DNA from: Shewanella polaris
Lineage (GTDB): Bacteria; Pseudomonadota; Gammaproteobacteria; Enterobacterales; Shewanellaceae
DNA length: 64,000 bases
Assembly: GCF_006385555.1 (NCBI RefSeq)
Contig: NZ_CP041036.1
Location: forward strand, 1,736,001 to 1,800,000
Direction of reading: 5' to 3'
Shown here: positions 1 through 39,753 of the stretch, piece by piece
Layout: each line of letters begins with the position of its first letter
Numbering within the stretch: position 1 is the stretch's first letter
Notes under the pieces: generated by a model
Seen by the model: the letters and a program-made list of their open reading frames with translations, nothing else
The model's database searches: none
What the model was told of the DNA's origin: nothing
Translations under genes and position numbers: made by a program

Positions 1-842
1 ACAAAATTGCCGGTTGTTCAGTTGGGGCGTTAGTGGGGGCAGCTTATTCCAATAATCATTTGGCTGAGCTTGAAACCTGGGTGAGTGGCTTTTCAAGCTG
101 GGATGTGCTCGGGTTAATGGATTTAGGGTGGCGTAAAGGCGGTTTAATCAGTGGCGAAAAAGTATTTGATGTGTTGGCTAATCGCATTGGTGATCTTAAC
201 ATTGAACAACTGAAGCGTCCCTTTGCCGCAGTGGCAACAGATTTATATTCTGGTCAAGAAATTTGGTTTAAAGAAGGTGACTTACGCCATGCGGTTCGAG
301 CCTCGTGTTCAATGCCGGGTTTTTTGCCGCCTGTTCAGCAAGGAAACCGCTGGGTAGTTGATGGTGCCGTAGTTAACCCTGTGCCAGTGTCATTAGCGCG
401 TTCTATGGGAGTCGATATCGTTATTGCGGTGGATTTAAACGGTCATCGTCGTGGGCAAATGCATTTAATTCCAGAGCAAGTAAAAAGCCGAAAAGCGACT
501 AAGTCTGAGCCTATCGATGAAAAGCGCGAGCTTGAATCTGGCTTTATGGATTTATGGGGTAAAGGCAAAGATTACATGAATGGCTTATCTGATAAGTTTG
601 CTCTTGGCAGTTCAAAATCCCATCCAGGTATGTTGGCTGTTATGTCGCAATCAATGGATATTTTAGAGCAACGCCATAAACGCTCACGTTTAATGGGCGA
701 GCCACCTGATATTTGTATTGTTCCTGATGTCGGTGATATTGGCACTATGGAGTTTCATCGTGCCAAAGAAGCCATTATAGCTGGCGAACAAGCTGTAATG
801 GATATTCAACATTTACTTAAAGCGACATTAAATAACAAATAG
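1..842 (+). CDS. Patatin-like phospholipase (RssA type), 5' end missing
   Basis: The reading frame is already open at base 3, so the gene starts upstream of the window. The first visible residues include G-C-S-V-G, the GxSxG nucleophile elbow of patatin-like serine hydrolases (bases 12-26). About 110 residues later V-D-G-A supplies the catalytic Asp of the D-G-A/G motif. These two form the Ser-Asp dyad of the family. The rest resembles bacterial RssA-like cytoplasmic proteins, including a conserved N-P-V-P-V-S after the Asp motif. The C-terminal third is charged and less conserved. Substrate unknown; lipid acyl hydrolase activity is inferred from family only. Confidence 0.85.
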   Translation, partial: KIAGCSVGALVGAAYSNNHLAELETWVSGFSSWDVLGLMDLGWRKGGLISGEKVFDVLANRIGDLNIEQLKRPFAAVATDLYSGQEIWFKEGDLRHAVRASCSMPGFLPPVQQGNRWVVDGAVVNPVPVSLARSMGVDIVIAVDLNGHRRGQMHLIPEQVKSRKATKSEPIDEKRELESGFMDLWGKGKDYMNGLSDKFALGSSKSHPGMLAVMSQSMDILEQRHKRSRLMGEPPDICIVPDVGDIGTMEFHRAKEAIIAGEQAVMDIQHLLKATLNNK

Positions 843-1347
843 CGGTCTCCAATTCTGGTAGTGCTTGCATGTCTATGCGTGGCACTGCCTCTTGGTGTAA
901 ATGCTGCTTTATTAATGTATTAGGCCTTTTATACATAAAGTCTATTATTTAATGTACATCATTGTCCTAGATTATTAATATCTTGCGTCTTACTGTCGGG
1001 CAACTTATCTATCTTTTCTCTATAGGCATGTCGGTTCCGAGAATTGCATTGATTATGACTTTCCTAGTTAACTTCTTTTTTCTTCTTAACCTTTGCGTCT
1101 ATCGATAAAACCGCTATTAGTAATCAATTAGTTAGTCGATATCAATGGGTCATTATCCATTAATAGTGATTAATATGGTCTTAGGCTAACACACTAGGGA
1201 CGTTTGGACATGACAGGCTTTATAGCTAAAGACATCCTATTTCGTTAAACAATTTTAAATTTTTCTGTGGTATTTGTTCTCTGTAAATCCCTACATTATT
1301 TATGGCTAACAGCAAGGTATTTTTCACTATAAGTACTGCCGACAATT
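843..1347. other. Intergenic region between patatin-like gene and nrdD control region
   Basis: No convincing open reading frame or structured RNA was seen. The stretch is AT-rich and has no strong T-tailed hairpin after the patatin-like stop. The part beyond base 1348 carries the nrdD regulatory sites listed separately. Confidence 0.5.
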
Positions 1348-34136: not shown

Positions 34137-34508
34137 CTAGTGATTTAAACGTAACTCATGTCTATGTTCACTAAGGAATTTTTGTTCACATTGAGCACAA
34201 CGTTGCTCGGTGGGATCGGCGATTAAGCGTGACGGTTCTATGTCCATCTCACAATCGGAACAAATGCCATAGAGACCGAGTTCAAGTTGACAATAAGCCG
34301 CTTCGAGCCGCATTAGCTTAGAGAAAGTATCGGTATTGGATAGTTTGATTTGTGACAAGTAGTCAATAACGTTCCCAAGAGGCGTTTTCATAGAGATATG
34401 AGCAACATCAGTGGCTTGTAATGGCTTCTTGATAAGTTGCATTAATTCACATCTCAAAATACGTTCGAGTTGTTCAAGTTCATGCAATGTGTCTTGAGTA
34501 TTGTGCAA
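34137..34508 (-). CDS. DksA/TraR-type C4 zinc-finger protein
   Basis: 123 residues. A helical N-terminal half is followed by C-S-D-C ... C-A-Q-C (C-x2-C-x17-C-x2-C), the zinc finger of the DksA/TraR family that binds the RNA polymerase secondary channel. E-L-G-L-Y-G-I-C-S-D-C matches the Y-G-x-C-x-x-C family signature. It begins with TTG (34508) with GAAGG upstream. Whether the coiled-coil tip has the acidic residues needed to act like DksA is unclear, so it may be a DksA2-like modulator or an unrelated user of the fold. Confidence 0.8.
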   Translation of the reverse strand: MHNTQDTLHELEQLERILRCELMQLIKKPLQATDVAHISMKTPLGNVIDYLSQIKLSNTDTFSKLMRLEAAYCQLELGLYGICSDCEMDIEPSRLIADPTEQRCAQCEQKFLSEHRHELRLNH

Positions 34509-34885: not shown

Positions 34886-35836
34886 TTAGCCTTCGTTTAT
34901 TGTTCGGTGGGCGTGCTGTATTACTTTAACTATCTCTTCAGTGGTTTTAAATACTCTTAACTCTCTAAATAATGTATCTGCTTCTGGATATTGGCGGTTC
35001 AAGTAACTAAACCACTGTTTAATCCGTGAGGGGTAATAGTCAGACTTACGTCCATTCAGTTCTTTGTCGGTGTAGTCGATTAGTAAGCTTAGGGTTTGTT
35101 GCCAACTGAATGGGGTTGCTCCTGTTTTAATGGTATCCCCTAAATTAGGTAGCGATATGGCGCCGCGACCAATCATCACACTGTCACAACCGGTAATATC
35201 GATACAACGCTGTGCATCAGCCACATTCCAGATCTCTCCATTAGCAATAACAGGGATCGGTAATCGTTGTCTCACTTCAGTAATGTACTCCCAATAAGCC
35301 GGTGGTTTGTAACCGTCGGTTTTACTGCGCGCATGGATCGCAAGTTCAGTTGCGCCAGCTTCGTACACTGCTAAGGCATTTTCCATAAATAATGACTTAT
35401 CTTCGTAGCCTAAACGGATTTTGGCGGTAACAGGGTGTTCAGATGGCACGGCATCGCGCATGGCTTTGACGATATTGTAAATATTATCTGGATACTGCAG
35501 CAATACGGCGCCGCCTTTGCTTTTATTGACGGTTTTGGCTGGACAGCCAAAGTTTGCATCAACGCCATTTGAACCTAGCTCTACAGCTCTTACGGCATTT
35601 TGTGCCATCCATTCAGGTTCTTGGCCTAATAACTGTACTCGTACTGGAGTTCCAGATGCGGTTAAGCCTTGATGATGTAACTCAGGACATAATTTGTAGA
35701 ATACTTTGTCTGGTATGAGTTGATTGACTACCCTGACAAATTCAGTCACAACCAGGTCAAATGGGTTGATGGCAGATAATATTTCACGCATATGGTCATC
35801 AACCACACCTTCCATTGGAGCTAAAATAACGCGCAC
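34886..35836 (-). CDS. dusC: tRNA-dihydrouridine(16) synthase
   Basis: 316-residue flavin enzyme that reduces uridine in the tRNA D-loop. It opens with V-I-L-A-P-M-E-G-V-V-D; N-F-G-C-P-A-K-T-V carries the catalytic Cys, and H-A-R-S-K-T-D-G-Y-K-P-P-A and M-I-G-R-G-A are FMN-binding segments. DusC is favoured over DusA/B by the start and the A-R-S-K-T-D-G-Y segment. GTG 35836 with AAGG at -11 is the best start; the frame opens 21 bp earlier at a TTG. Confidence 0.92.
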   Translation of the reverse strand: MRVILAPMEGVVDDHMREILSAINPFDLVVTEFVRVVNQLIPDKVFYKLCPELHHQGLTASGTPVRVQLLGQEPEWMAQNAVRAVELGSNGVDANFGCPAKTVNKSKGGAVLLQYPDNIYNIVKAMRDAVPSEHPVTAKIRLGYEDKSLFMENALAVYEAGATELAIHARSKTDGYKPPAYWEYITEVRQRLPIPVIANGEIWNVADAQRCIDITGCDSVMIGRGAISLPNLGDTIKTGATPFSWQQTLSLLIDYTDKELNGRKSDYYPSRIKQWFSYLNRQYPEADTLFRELRVFKTTEEIVKVIQHAHRTINEG

Positions 35837-36163
35837 AGTACACCTTGTTGAAGTCAAAAGTGGGCCATTTTAGCGTGTTTATTATCTGATATCAGTACTA
35901 AATGACAATGCGAGTTATTTTGTCGATTAACTAAACAAATTATTAATAATAATCATATCGATAGCACTTATGTTGTAATTGTGTTAAATATATGTGGCGT
36001 CAGTTTTGGGGCTTATCTAGCAAGTATTTATGTTAAATAAATAGATTTTTTTCACATTTTTTAAATTTATTTGCAATAAAATTTACTTATTGCGGGTCTC
36101 TTTAACCAAGCCGGCAATGATGTTGGTCACCATACACAATCAAGATATAGGAAGATAATTATT
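35837..36163. promoter_or_regulatory. Divergent control region, dusC / hvfA-like precursor
   Basis: About 330 bp of AT-rich DNA. The inverted repeat GCAATAA-N7-TTATTGC (36073-36093) is 71 bp before the precursor start and is a candidate operator. A tract TATTAATAATAATCATAT near 35940 weakly resembles a Fur site but I do not call it. AGGAAG precedes the precursor ATG. Confidence 0.4.
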
Positions 36164-36592
36164 ATGAATTCAATCAAACAAACTACTTTAGCGGTTGCAT
36201 TAGGTTCTGTTGTAATGACTGCTGGTTTTTCTGCTCAAGTAGAAGCTAACCCATTTGGTTTTCAACAATTAACTTCTGGTTATCAAATTGATGGCGGAGA
36301 AGGTAAGTGTGGCGAAGGCAAATGTGGCGGCGACATGAAAAAGTCTGCTGAAAAAGCGGCAGAAGGTAAGTGTGGCGAAGGCAAATGCGGCGGCGACATG
36401 AAAAAGTCTGCAGAGAAAGCGGTTGAAGGTAAGTGTGGCGAAGGCAAGTGCGGCGGCGACATGAAAAAGTCTGCAGAGAAAGCGGTTGAAGGTAAGTGTG
36501 GCGAAGGCAAGTGCGGCGGCGACATGAAAAAGTCTGCAGAGAAAGTTAAAGAAGGCAAGTGTGGTGAAGGTAAATGTGGCGGCAATAAATAA
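36164..36592 (+). CDS. hvfA: HvfA-type RiPP precursor with ten EGKCG motifs
   Basis: 142 residues. A Sec signal peptide (about residues 1-28, ending V-E-A|N) leads into a short spacer and then E-G-K-C-G-E-G-K-C-G-G five times, separated by D-M-K-K-S-A-E-K and three variable residues. All ten cysteines lie in EGKCG motifs. HvfA/bufferin-type peptides carry such motifs; the MNIO enzyme converts their cysteines to oxazolone- or thiooxazole-type groups that bind copper in the periplasm. The genes for that enzyme and its partner follow directly. Modification and metal binding here are inferred from family. The number of motifs is high. Confidence 0.9.
   Translation: MNSIKQTTLAVALGSVVMTAGFSAQVEANPFGFQQLTSGYQIDGGEGKCGEGKCGGDMKKSAEKAAEGKCGEGKCGGDMKKSAEKAVEGKCGEGKCGGDMKKSAEKAVEGKCGEGKCGGDMKKSAEKVKEGKCGEGKCGGNK
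36299..36583 (+). repeat. 63-bp tandem repeats inside the RiPP precursor
   Basis: Full units start at 36299, 36362, 36425 and 36488, with a final 33-bp partial unit at 36551-36583. Units 2-4 differ by only a few bases, so the array has been recently homogenised or amplified. The repeats stay in frame (21 codons). Confidence 0.95.
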
Positions 36593-36633
36593 TTGGCTGC
36601 ATCTATTTGATAATGCCTAGGCTTATCTGACAC

Positions 36634-36662
36634 AATTAAGGCCTGAGATTCAGGCCTTAATT
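36634..36662 (+). terminator. Hairpin between precursor and maturation genes
   Basis: Arms AATTAAGGCCTGA and TCAGGCCTTAATT, loop GAT, followed by TTATC. It lies 42 bp past the precursor stop and 56 bp before the DUF692 gene. The weak T-tract suggests partial termination, which would give more precursor than enzyme, or protection of the precursor mRNA. Confidence 0.7.
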
Positions 36663-36717
36663 TTATCTGCCTTTTAGCTAATTTTTAGCATTACTGATTA
36701 ATTCAAGGATACACATT

Positions 36718-37575
36718 ATGACGACAAATCATGTTCATGGCTTAGCCAATGTTGGATTAGGGCTTCGGCGTGAAATGCTCGATGAATTTTGTCAGCAGGT
36801 GCCATCGGCCATTGAATTTTTCGAAGTTGCACCTGAAAATTGGATGACATTAGGCGGTAAGTTTGGCCGTCAATTTAAGCAATTAACTGAACAACATACT
36901 TTTTTCTGCCATGGGCTTTCGTTATCCATTGGCAGTCCAGAGACGCTCGATACTCAATTTGTACAAAACGTAAAACGCTTTTTGGATGAGCACAATATTG
37001 ATGTTTATTCAGAGCATTTAAGTTATTGTTCGGGCGCTGGCCATATGTATGATTTGATGCCTATCCCATTTACTGACGATGCGGTTATCCATACTGCTAA
37101 GCGGATAAAACTAGTTGAAGATATACTTGAACGACCATTTATTTTAGAGAATGTGTCATTTTATGCAGCGCCAGGCGCACAAATGACGGAACAAGAATTT
37201 GTCAATGCCGTGCTGCAAGAGGCTAACTGCAAATTATTGCTTGATGTGAATAACATTTACGTTAATTCAATTAACCATCAATACGATGCCAAAGCTTTCT
37301 TAACCGCTATGCCTACCAAACGAATCGCTTATCTGCATATTGCAGGGCACTATGAAGAAGAGGTTGACTTAATGGTCGATACTCACGGTGCGGATATTAT
37401 CGATCCAGTATGGGATTTATTGCAGCAGTGTTATCAATTACATGGGGTGCATCCGACATTGCTTGAGCGTGATTTTAATATTCCTAAAACTGAAATACTC
37501 CTTAATGAGATTAATCAAATTCATCAATATCAACAAAATGCTCTAGCATCGCAGTCTGTATTGAGGAAAGCATAA
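36718..37575 (+). CDS. hvfB: DUF692 (MNIO) multinuclear iron oxidase, RiPP maturation enzyme
   Basis: 285-residue TIM-barrel enzyme of the MNIO family, which oxidises precursor cysteines with a two- or three-iron centre. Conserved ligand-type segments are visible in order: F-E-V-A-P-E-N-W, H-G-L-S-L-S-I-G, Y-S-E-H-L-S-Y, L-E-N-V, L-L-D-V-N-N-I-Y-V-N-S, H-I-A-G-H, D-T-H-G and L-L-E-R-D. These match HvfB/BufB proteins. AAGGA precedes the ATG. Its stop overlaps the next start by one base. Confidence 0.94.
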   Translation: MTTNHVHGLANVGLGLRREMLDEFCQQVPSAIEFFEVAPENWMTLGGKFGRQFKQLTEQHTFFCHGLSLSIGSPETLDTQFVQNVKRFLDEHNIDVYSEHLSYCSGAGHMYDLMPIPFTDDAVIHTAKRIKLVEDILERPFILENVSFYAAPGAQMTEQEFVNAVLQEANCKLLLDVNNIYVNSINHQYDAKAFLTAMPTKRIAYLHIAGHYEEEVDLMVDTHGADIIDPVWDLLQQCYQLHGVHPTLLERDFNIPKTEILLNEINQIHQYQQNALASQSVLRKA

Positions 37576-38336
37576 TGGGTTTCATTGAAGTACAACAACA
37601 ATTCATGGACTACATCCGTGATCCTAGTTTGCCATTACCTGAGGGTATTGAGTCTAGACGGATGAAAATCTATCGCGAATTGTTTTTTAATAATATCGCA
37701 GGTTTTGTATCGAGTGCATTTCCTGTACTGAAAAGTTTGTATCAAGACGAACAGTGGCAGGCCTTAGTACAACAATTTTTTGTAACGCATGATTGTAAGA
37801 CACCAATATTTGTTGAAATTGCCGGTGAGTTTTTAGGTTTTTTACAACACGAATATCAAGTAACTGAACATGATCCAGTTTTTATGTTGCAGTTAGCACA
37901 TTATGAATGGTTAGAGTTGTGTGTGGCAGTCGCGCCAGATACGCCAACGTCTCAGATAATTCATATTGATGATCTAAATAACCATCAGCTATGCCTCGCC
38001 GCTTGTGCTAAGGTGGCGCAATATGCCTTTGATGTTCAGCATATTAGTGTTGACTACCAACCTATAGAGCCGACAGCACAAGCGAACTTTTTTTGTGTCT
38101 ATCGAGATCTTGATGACGAAGTGGCGTTTTTACAACTCACACCGTTAAGTGCGCAAGTGTTGGCTTATATTGAACAAATGAGTGATTCACCACAAGGCGT
38201 AAAGGTAGATGCTATTATCGAATGGTTAGCTGAACACTATCCGCAAATGTCCCGTGAGACATTATTGGCTGGTTGTATACCTTTATTGCAGCAATTTGCC
38301 CAAAAGGGAATTGTGATCTCATCTGTCTTTGAATAA
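37575..38336 (+). CDS. hvfC: DUF2063 maturation partner (HvfC/BufC)
   Basis: 253 residues, starting at a TAATG overlap with the enzyme gene. The N-terminal domain has the DUF2063 pattern Y-R-E-L-F-F-N-N-I-A and S-A-F-P-V-L-K. A second domain occupies the C-terminal half. In characterised systems this partner binds the precursor and delivers it to the MNIO enzyme. No DoxX-type membrane gene (hvfD) follows, so this is the three-gene form. Confidence 0.92.
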   Translation: MGFIEVQQQFMDYIRDPSLPLPEGIESRRMKIYRELFFNNIAGFVSSAFPVLKSLYQDEQWQALVQQFFVTHDCKTPIFVEIAGEFLGFLQHEYQVTEHDPVFMLQLAHYEWLELCVAVAPDTPTSQIIHIDDLNNHQLCLAACAKVAQYAFDVQHISVDYQPIEPTAQANFFCVYRDLDDEVAFLQLTPLSAQVLAYIEQMSDSPQGVKVDAIIEWLAEHYPQMSRETLLAGCIPLLQQFAQKGIVISSVFE

Positions 38337-38396
38337 TAAGCTTACTTAATTTAGGGTTTTTATTTTGTGTAGATGTGACTAAAATAAGCCGCTTTT

Positions 38397-38412
38397 TGTG
38401 ATCTGCTTCACA
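38397..38412 (+). promoter_or_regulatory. Perfect CRP site
   Basis: TGTGA-TCTGCT-TCACA has both half-sites identical to the CRP consensus. It lies about 84 bp before the 39-residue gene at 38496. TTGACC (38419-38424) and GATACA (38442-38447), 17 bp apart, could be its promoter. Confidence 0.85.
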
Positions 38413-38495
38413 TTGGGCTTGACCCATTTCTGTGTACAGTTGATACAGAGGAACGCAGGTATACCGTAGTCGCATAACCTTAACTAGGAATAATC

Positions 38496-38615
38496 ATGAG
38501 TCAGCCGTTTAAAGACCCGTTCAACATTTTTTATCTTTTTGGTTTTATTTTGGTGTTATTAATTCCAACATTACCCGCGACGCTAGCATGGTTGAAATTT
38601 GCAGGGTTAATTTAA
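38496..38615 (+). CDS. Small membrane protein, 39 residues
   Basis: M-S-Q-P-F-K-D-P-F-N-I-F-Y then a hydrophobic segment F-G-F-I-L-V-L-L-I-P-T-L-P and a short tail: one predicted membrane helix. AGGAA lies about 7 bp before the ATG, a perfect CRP site lies upstream, and a terminator follows 40 bp later, giving a complete small transcription unit. I do not recognise the family. Small single-helix proteins often adjust larger membrane complexes, but no partner is shown here. Confidence 0.72.
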   Translation: MSQPFKDPFNIFYLFGFILVLLIPTLPATLAWLKFAGLI

Positions 38616-38654
38616 CATTTATTTCAGGTTAACGTGCAAATATGACGTATGATG

Positions 38655-38679
38655 AAACCACTCAAACAGAGTGGTTTTT
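38655..38679 (+). terminator. Terminator of the small membrane protein gene
   Basis: Arms AAACCACTC and GAGTGGTTT, loop AAACA, followed by T residues. Supports the 39-residue gene as its own transcript and argues against the longer start of the following gene. Confidence 0.82.
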
Positions 38680-38698
38680 GTTTTATATAGGGTCCCAC

Positions 38699-39064
38699 AT
38701 GGCTGTAAAACGTGGTTTTTTTCTGATTATAGGGTTATGTAGCCTAGTATTAGGCTTAATTGGCATTGCTCTGCCTTTATTACCTACAGTGCCATTTATT
38801 TTATTGGCAGCGTTTTGCTTTGCCCGTTCAAATGATCGTCTTCATCAATGGTTAGTCAATCACCCATGGTTTGCCGAAGGGATTCATCAGTGGCAATCCA
38901 AACGTGCCCTAAGCCGAACTTTAAAACGCAAAGCCATGATAATGAGTAGCTTAAGTTTTGCTATCAGTATTGTGATAGTGCCGATTATATGGGTGAAGTT
39001 TATGTTGCTGTGCATGATGCTTATATTATTGTTTTTTTTGTGGCGGATCCCAGAGTTAGAATAA
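38699..39064 (+). CDS. ybaN: YbaN/DUF454 family inner-membrane protein
   Basis: 121 residues with hydrophobic helices at about 5-40 and 80-115, and the conserved G-I-A-L-P-L-L-P-T-V-P-F-I-L-L-A-A-F-C-F-A-R-S plus H-P-W-F. Matches DUF454 (E. coli YbaN). Function unknown. I start at ATG 38699; a start at 38642 would put coding sequence through the preceding terminator. First gene of the ybaN-apt-dnaX-ybaB block kept from E. coli. Confidence 0.88.
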   Translation: MAVKRGFFLIIGLCSLVLGLIGIALPLLPTVPFILLAAFCFARSNDRLHQWLVNHPWFAEGIHQWQSKRALSRTLKRKAMIMSSLSFAISIVIVPIIWVKFMLLCMMLILLFFLWRIPELE

Positions 39065-39142
39065 TAAACGGCCAGTTAAAGTAAGCTAGTTGCAACTGAG
39101 ATTAAACGGGCATAAGATCCCCCCCCAGTATTTTTTTATCAG

Positions 39143-39168
39143 AGTCCACCCATAACGTGGACTTTTTT
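39143..39168 (+). terminator. Terminator between ybaN and apt
   Basis: Arms AGTCCAC and GTGGACT with a 7-base loop, followed by a T-run. Located 79 bp past the ybaN stop. Confidence 0.85.
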
Positions 39169-39204
39169 ATTGCGTAATCACTTTCAGACAGAGTTAACTA
39201 CATT

Positions 39205-39753
39205 ATGATGAACCAAGACAGTTTAGCGCTTATTAAGCAGAGCATTAAAACCATTCCTGACTATCCAATCCCAGGCATCATGTTCCGTGACGTCACCAGC
39301 TTACTTGAAAATGCCGAAGCATATAAAGCGACTATTGCGATTCTAGTGGCTCATTATCAATCAAAAGGTTTCACCAAAGTGGTGGGTACTGAAGCGCGTG
39401 GTTTTTTATTTGGCGCACCACTCGCGTTAGAGTTAGGCGTTGGTTTTGTCCCTGTGCGTAAACCGGGTAAATTACCCCGTAAAACCATTAGCGAAACCTA
39501 TGATTTAGAATACGGTAAAGATACTTTAGAAATTCATGTCGACGCGATAAATGCCAATGATAAAGTGCTCGTTATTGATGATTTATTAGCAACAGGTGGC
39601 ACGATTGAAGCGACTGTAAAACTTATTCGTCAATTAGGCGGTGAAGTGAGTCATGCTGCATTTGTTATCTCATTACCAGAAATTGGTGGCGAGAAGCGCT
39701 TACAAAATTTGGGAATTGAAGTGTTAAGTTTATGCGAGTTTGAAGGCGAGTAA
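39205..39753 (+). CDS. apt: Adenine phosphoribosyltransferase
   Basis: 182 residues. Salvages adenine to AMP with PRPP. The PRPP-binding motif is [21 protein letters not shown] and R-K-P-G-K-L-P are typical APT segments. Start could be the first or second Met (39205 or 39208). Confidence 0.96.

Follow-up and report, generated by a model that had tools for sequence, protein, structure and literature searches.

Hvf captophorin genes of Shewanella polaris: an hvfABC locus and a detached, probably co-regulated hvfX behind a shared promoter-like motif

The window analysed here is a 64,000-nucleotide (nt) stretch of the Shewanella polaris genome (contig NZ_CP041036.1, positions 1,736,001 to 1,800,000), and the subject is its hvfABC locus, which encodes a cysteine-rich peptide and the proteins predicted to modify it. 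Three open frames lie on the plus strand: hvfA (36164-36592, 142 aa) for a precursor peptide with ten EGKCG motifs, hvfB (36718-37575, 285 aa) for an MNIO (DUF692) enzyme, and hvfC (37575-38336, 253 aa) for a DUF2063/RRE partner protein. The overlap of hvfB and hvfC is one base, in TAATG, and the frames lie exactly where the original prediction had placed this three-gene layout. The precursor matches the HvfA-family domain NF050137 at 96.8 bits (cut-off 19.5), HvfB matches NF003818 at 436.5 (cut-off 360) and PF05114 at 346.8 (cut-off 25), and HvfC matches NF050145 at 293.7 (cut-off 142) and PF09836 at 96.9 (cut-off 27.2). Judged from sequence, the locus is a true, ordinary EGKCG captophorin of the Buf_EGKCG/oxazolin kind as to peptide and enzymes. 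What looks new against the literature searched is the arrangement around them: a pathway split in two, a promoter-like motif shared by its parts, and conserved hairpins around the precursor gene.

The layout is stable across the genus. A sample of 127 loci fetched from 126 other genomes gives, with the window, 128 loci examined, and the order hvfA-hvfB-hvfC is kept in 127 of them, the remaining one stopping at a contig edge. The gene dusC lies upstream in 123/128, and a 39-aa open reading frame (ORF) and a DUF454 gene lie downstream, likewise each in 123/128. Of 129 genus genomes, 127 have a match to the precursor and 127 one to HvfC; both are missing from the same two. Left out of the precursor counts were L148, which has a run of N, and L159 and L191, which meet contig ends; L191 was also left out of the promoter counts and L159 out of those based on hvfB.

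Upstream of hvfA, at 36072..36099 on the plus strand, a motif search found TGCAAT-N17-GGTCT, a putative promoter of the type read by extracytoplasmic function (ECF) sigma factors. The form TGMAAT-N17-GGTC, with at least five of six positions of TGAAAT and a spacing of exactly 17, stands 5' of hvfA in 120/127 loci; four of the remaining loci match TGAAAT at four of six with the same spacing, and three have no motif. The control, 1143 windows of 170 bases from the same hvfA loci, gave a single occurrence. Spacing is exactly 17 in 120 of 122 motif matches, in a scan that ranged from 10 to 21 and favoured 17 only among equal scores. By these features TGAAAT-N17-GGTC looks like an ECF-sigma promoter, and a consensus scan of the plus strand from 35860 to hvfA found no sigma-70-type promoter. 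Exact CRP (TGTGA-N6-TCACA) and FNR-like (TTGAT-N4-ATCAA) sites, considered as a common feature of hvfA, were rejected at 1 and 0 of 128 loci.

Where, then, is the DoxX gene? None lies between hvfC and the next ORFs, and to this extent the earlier claim that the DoxX gene hvfD is absent stands; it fails genome-wide. The genome holds two DoxX-domain genes, and one of these, hvfX, at 2742569-2743162 on the minus strand and about 0.97 Mb from hvfABC, scores 232.1 bits against the HvfX family NF050144 (cut-off 80). The second scores 69.3 bits, under the cut-off. Loss of DoxX was rejected since an HvfX-family gene lies elsewhere in the genome. An exact TGAAAT-N17-GGTCT ends 34 bases 5' of the hvfX start codon, and because the gene is detached yet stands behind the same promoter-like motif, hvfX is taken as part of the pathway.

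The wider distribution of hvfX follows the same division. The comparison set comprised the best 80 of 336 related loci in named genomes, 47 from Shewanella and 33 from other genera, and the following counts are among these. In Shewanella the motif precedes hvfX at 43/47 loci, with the other four matching at four of six, and no hvfB match lies near any of the 47 within up to 3 kb on each side. In the other genera, the motif occurs without a nearby hvfB at 12 of the 33 loci, and a nearby hvfB without the motif at hvfX at 14; in these 14 the motif is found at neither hvfX nor hvfA. Control windows for hvfX contained it in 5/633. Within the genus, an HvfX-like DoxX gene follows hvfC in only three of 128 loci, the same three that lack the hvfA motif even at four of six. 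Across these loci the split pathway and the shared motif thus go together, and hvfABC and the detached hvfX are probably one pathway in two pieces, co-regulated in the genus.

The precursor gene is preceded by AGGAAG at 36149..36154, by direct reading of the sequence its probable ribosome-binding site. Residues 1-28 (36164..36247) form a probable Sec signal peptide, recognised by eye from a basic N-terminus, a hydrophobic core and small residues before NPF. Right after it comes the segment NPFGFQQLTSGYQI (36248..36289), whose pattern, ..F.[FYM]..[ML]..G[YF]Q[LIVM], occurs in 125/125 genus precursors with F, G and Q invariant; a related pattern occurs in 85 of the 120 best-listed of 4859 homologues. 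This conserved stretch, NPFGF..M..GYQ, is a candidate recognition element, and HvfA without its signal peptide is reported to be poorly modified (PMC13419390). The repeat array follows at 36299..36589, with five EGKCGEGKCG pairs at a constant step of 63 nt (21 residues), units 1-4 being identical at 55-62 of 63 nt. All ten cysteines of the peptide fall inside EGKCG, as first described. No match to PF10048 (DUF2282) or BufA2 was found for the precursor at E up to 1.

Is ten an unusual number of motifs? A check of other genomes had been proposed with the original prediction, and its outcome depends on the frame of reference. The 125 intact genus precursors carry 2-14 EGKCG motifs with a median of 10; 72 have at least ten, 25 have exactly ten and 47 have more, so that ten motifs as an outlier inside the genus was rejected. 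Among the 120 best-listed homologues, many of them short or partial, the range is 3-13 and the median 7, with at least ten in 7/120. The claim of an unusual number thus holds against oxazolin (six), fontiphorin (seven) and the homologue median and fails within the genus, and family members of 31-506 residues with up to 58 cysteines have been published (PMC12452194). Ten motifs are ordinary for the genus and high against described members, far from extreme. The lysine-rich spacers, also held to be unusual at first, occur throughout the genus. The modal spacing of pairs is 17, 21, 22 or 16 residues in 89 of the 114 precursors that have at least two paired motifs, and the 65-aa precursor of locus L186, with two motifs, may reflect a repeat collapsed during assembly.

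HvfB contains all of the segments HGLSLS, EHLSY, ENVS, LLDVNNIY, HIAGH, DTHG and ERDF, which we take to hold the iron ligands, and they fall within its alignment with structure 3bww, in keeping with the claim of a DUF692 enzyme with a full set of ligand-type residues. HvfC matches the solved structure 3dee (E 1.1e-11). The MNIO residues that accompany Lys-Cys motifs are two arginines in the N-terminal region and an Asp-Phe pair (PMC13097082); the window HvfB has Arg17-Arg18 and ERDF, as in Lys-Cys-type MNIOs, and a pattern reading of the genus copies gives RR in 124/127 and DF in 126/127. The methanobactin MbnB model reaches 36.4 bits on the window proteins, far under its cut-off of 325. The modification now described is 5-thiooxazole, established in fontiphorin, oxazolin and gonophorin, and modified MBP-fused FonA carries up to four Cu, according to PMC13097082. 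Family scores and the published chemistry of close relatives bear out the assignment to the HvfABC type and the prediction that the MNIO, together with its DUF2063 partner, modifies the cysteines. By analogy with those relatives, we infer both the copper role and the 5-thiooxazole chemistry at this locus.

Two RNA-level features flank the precursor gene. Between hvfA and hvfB, a stem search found a perfect 13-bp hairpin at 36634..36662 on the plus strand, with the loop GAT and followed by TTATCTGC. Perfect intergenic stems of at least 8 bp occur in 72/127 loci, where mononucleotide shuffles predict 1.6, and their sequences differ among loci; in 88/127 the longest intergenic stem is followed by four or more T within eight bases, an uncontrolled count. 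The simplest reading is a leaky terminator that would raise precursor over enzyme. The second feature is a stem-loop in the leader (36110..36127, arms 36110-36116 and 36121-36127), which keeps its position in 100 distinct leaders. These are what remained of 122 once duplicates were removed, L191 and five loci in which no motif was found having been set aside as well. An unbroken stem of 7 or more occurs in 72/100, against about 20 in mononucleotide shuffles. Of the 500 cells in five aligned pairs, 476 are paired, against a mean of 461 and a largest value of 468 in 1000 column shuffles; 15 cells, in three pairs, are changed on both sides, and controls slid along the alignment are 17-53% paired. 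The persistence of hairpin and leader stem-loop despite changes in their sequence suggests that precursor may be made in excess over enzyme. A comparison of 35800-39300 with Rfam gave no match (E up to 1).

The motif also marks a gene outside the pathway proper. Of 30 genomes searched, 17 have an AhpC/TSA-family peroxiredoxin-like gene, whose product has a signal-like N-terminus by eye; the motif precedes this gene in 12 of them, against 0/295 control windows. Because this gene has the motif in most sampled genomes that hold it, the trigger is suggested to be periplasmic copper or oxidant stress.

These observations can be joined in one model, which as a whole we consider likely: a captophorin locus with ECF-type transcription, precursor excess, modification by HvfB and HvfC, Cu(I) binding and a detached, co-regulated hvfX. 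A stress-responsive ECF-type sigma factor would start transcription from the motif at 36072-36099, and the stem-loop leader and the leaky hairpin terminator after hvfA would yield more precursor than enzyme mRNA. HvfC would bind the precursor before export and present it to HvfB for conversion of its EGKCG cysteines, ten at most in one peptide, to 5-thiooxazoles, a reaction known from close relatives. The peptide would leave through Sec and, like its relatives, bind Cu(I) in the periplasm, with HvfX, of the DoxX family, as a fourth component whose gene, about 0.97 Mb distant, follows the same motif. A wider form of the model is rather more plausible than its denial: in Shewanella and its kin, hvfABC, the detached hvfX and the peroxiredoxin-like gene would form a trans-encoded regulon under one unrecognised ECF sigma factor, with the hvfA-hvfB hairpin setting the ratio of precursor to enzyme. 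If true, minimal hvfABC clusters seemingly without DoxX would still use HvfX.

Several results weigh against this model or parts of it. The motif is lineage-specific, since it does not occur at hvfA of 14 non-Shewanella operons, a search that covered 500 nt before the first KCG (for L380, whose first KCG is doubtful, the region 5' of the set start codon was used), and seven of the 33 other-genera hvfX loci have neither motif nor nearby hvfB. A scan of the entire genome with a somewhat stricter pattern returned five places against four in the reversed control and missed the hvfX site, so that single genome-wide matches mean little and only conservation counts. By that measure trxA, which carries the motif in only 2/30 genomes, was rejected as a conserved regulon member, and a cupredoxin-like gene (a Pfam match under cut-off) has it in only 3/12 matches. 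Nor was the motif found within 400 nt upstream of the region-2 match in any of the four ECF genes of the genome. HvfA scores 92.1 bits against the full-length equivalog NF050188, about 3 below the cut-off of 95. For the leader, the 476 paired cells exceed the column-shuffle mean of 461 by little, in a kind of test that relatedness among the sequences inflates; RNAalifold assigns the alignment only -0.25 kcal/mol, the window leader taken by itself is no more stable than its shuffled versions (z 0.10), and the leader inverted repeat could be an operator.

What factor might read the motif? Shewanella oneidensis has five ECF-like sigma factors, among them RpoE with the elements GAACTT/TCTACA and RpoE2 with TGATCC/CGTAAT (PMC4336711), and TGAAAT-N17-GGTC fits neither of these two nor the elements of Caulobacter sigma-F. 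Genomes without hvfA and hvfC (G025, G030) keep a relative of RpoE and yielded none of the three other ECF genes of the S. polaris genome, a comparison that singles out none. One candidate hvf regulator is an ECF sigma factor followed by a DUF3379 protein (311 bits; L267 519-1782, minus strand); in the two hvf-less genomes no relative of this sigma factor was found. In the divergent locus L189, hvfABC and a DoxX gene have as neighbours an ECF-like sigma gene and what may be a short anti-sigma gene (192-964, plus strand); near hvfX in L374-L376 there are relatives of this ECF gene, which itself has only about 18-24% identity to the matched ECF genes of the S. polaris genome. Elsewhere, look-alikes by eye of a response regulator and a sensor kinase (L199 724-1458, minus strand) are preceded by an exact TGAAAT-N17-GGTCT some 42 nt away, with two secreted repeat-like proteins encoded on the other side. 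The genome also has a second MNIO pathway (L003 903-3215, genome 3.575-3.578 Mb), with a BufA2-family precursor (NF050166, 139.6 bits over a cut-off of 60), a BufB-type MNIO and a DUF2063 partner; a TGAAAG-N17-GGTC lies about 110 nt upstream, one match in one genome.

Could the motif be something other than a promoter? If TGAAAT-N17-GGTC were a repressor or activator site, hvfABC would be a plain cluster under another promoter, and the inverted repeat just downstream of the motif would suit such a site. Two blocks at fixed spacing with short leaders are promoter geometry, however, with 120 of 122 matches at exactly 17, and the scan from 35860 to hvfA offers no sigma-70-type promoter in its stead; we hold this explanation to be quite improbable. 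It also seems unlikely that the stand-alone hvfX serves the BufA2 bufferin locus, or some unrelated role, and not hvfABC. The second MNIO locus, with its BufA2- and BufB-type genes and its single TGAAAG-N17-GGTC match, lends itself to that idea, but the family score of HvfX (NF050144, 232.1) and the motif common to hvfX and hvfABC speak against it, as do the hvfB genes near HvfX relatives in 14/33 other-genera loci and the HvfX-like DoxX gene after hvfC in three genus loci. A service of hvfX to both pathways is possible.

The metal is a separate matter. The modified peptide could act mainly against another stress or metal than copper, such as gold, hypochlorite, peroxide or chromate: Caulobacter MNIO-DUF2063-DoxX genes are under a sigma factor of the chromium/cadmium response (PMC3511200), a Haemophilus ECF factor responds to hypochlorite by the title of its report, and the peroxiredoxin-like gene here has the same motif. 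Against this, 5-thiooxazole peptides of the class bind copper (PMC13097082), and a main role other than copper appears somewhat unlikely. The preferred reading remains a probably copper-binding captophorin pathway, split in two and transcribed from ECF-type promoters.

Three neighbours of the locus deserve mention in their own right. A 39-aa hydrophobic ORF between hvfC and the DUF454 gene (38496-38615, plus strand), the one present in 123/128 loci, has no Pfam or NCBIfam match above cut-off. The perfect CRP-like palindrome TGTGA-N6-TCACA lies 5' of it at 38397-38412, with an exact match there in 12/123 loci. A DksA/TraR-type zinc-finger protein, under the NCBIfam DksA family cut-offs, is encoded nearby at 34137-34508 on the minus strand.

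HvfX/DoxX is the uncharacterised member of these copper-peptide systems, and three-gene clusters without DoxX have been described as minimal. In a genetically easy genus, the motif offers a route to additional partners and to the signal of stress, and natural precursors with 2 to 14 motifs inside one genus make the question of repeat number testable. Among the papers listed, judged by title and the opening of the abstract, none reports the TGAAAT-N17-GGTC motif or a detached hvfX, and the word "promoter" does not occur in the main texts of PMC12452194 and PMC13097082.

Among known systems, the BufA2/Buf2 bufferins share with this locus an MNIO, a DUF2063 partner and a Cys-rich exported peptide, and are represented in the same genome by the second locus, whose MNIO has Arg-Thr and Asp-Ala at the two sites where HvfB has Arg-Arg and Asp-Phe. 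The Caulobacter sigma-F bufferin regulon resembles the regulation proposed here, with ECF sigma control of DUF2282-MNIO-DUF2063-DoxX genes; its promoter is GTAACC-N16-CGAA as against TGAAAT-N17-GGTC (PMC3511200), and no sigma gene is seen in the hvf locus of the window. The repeats of the Buf_EGKCG/oxazolin family survey (PMC12452194) likewise have two EGKCG each, over 17 residues as reported there in place of the 21 here, and across the genus a spacing of 17 occurs most often. The survey models a beta-helix, which AlphaFold on HvfA (22-row alignment, mean predicted local distance difference test (pLDDT) score 37.8, no usable fold) neither confirms nor excludes. Fontiphorin FonABC of Fontimonas thermophila is also a three-gene set without DoxX, with repeated EGKCG and an MNIO with Arg-Arg and Asp-Phe, and has seven sites (PMC13097082) against ten here. 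Oxazolin HvfABCX of Haemophilus influenzae agrees in having an EGKCG precursor with a Sec signal, the HvfB MNIO, the HvfC partner and a DoxX-like HvfX; its six modified cysteines lie in three AEGKCGEGKCG motifs (PMC13419390) against ten cysteines here, and its hvfX lies inside the operon, whereas in S. polaris the gene is detached.

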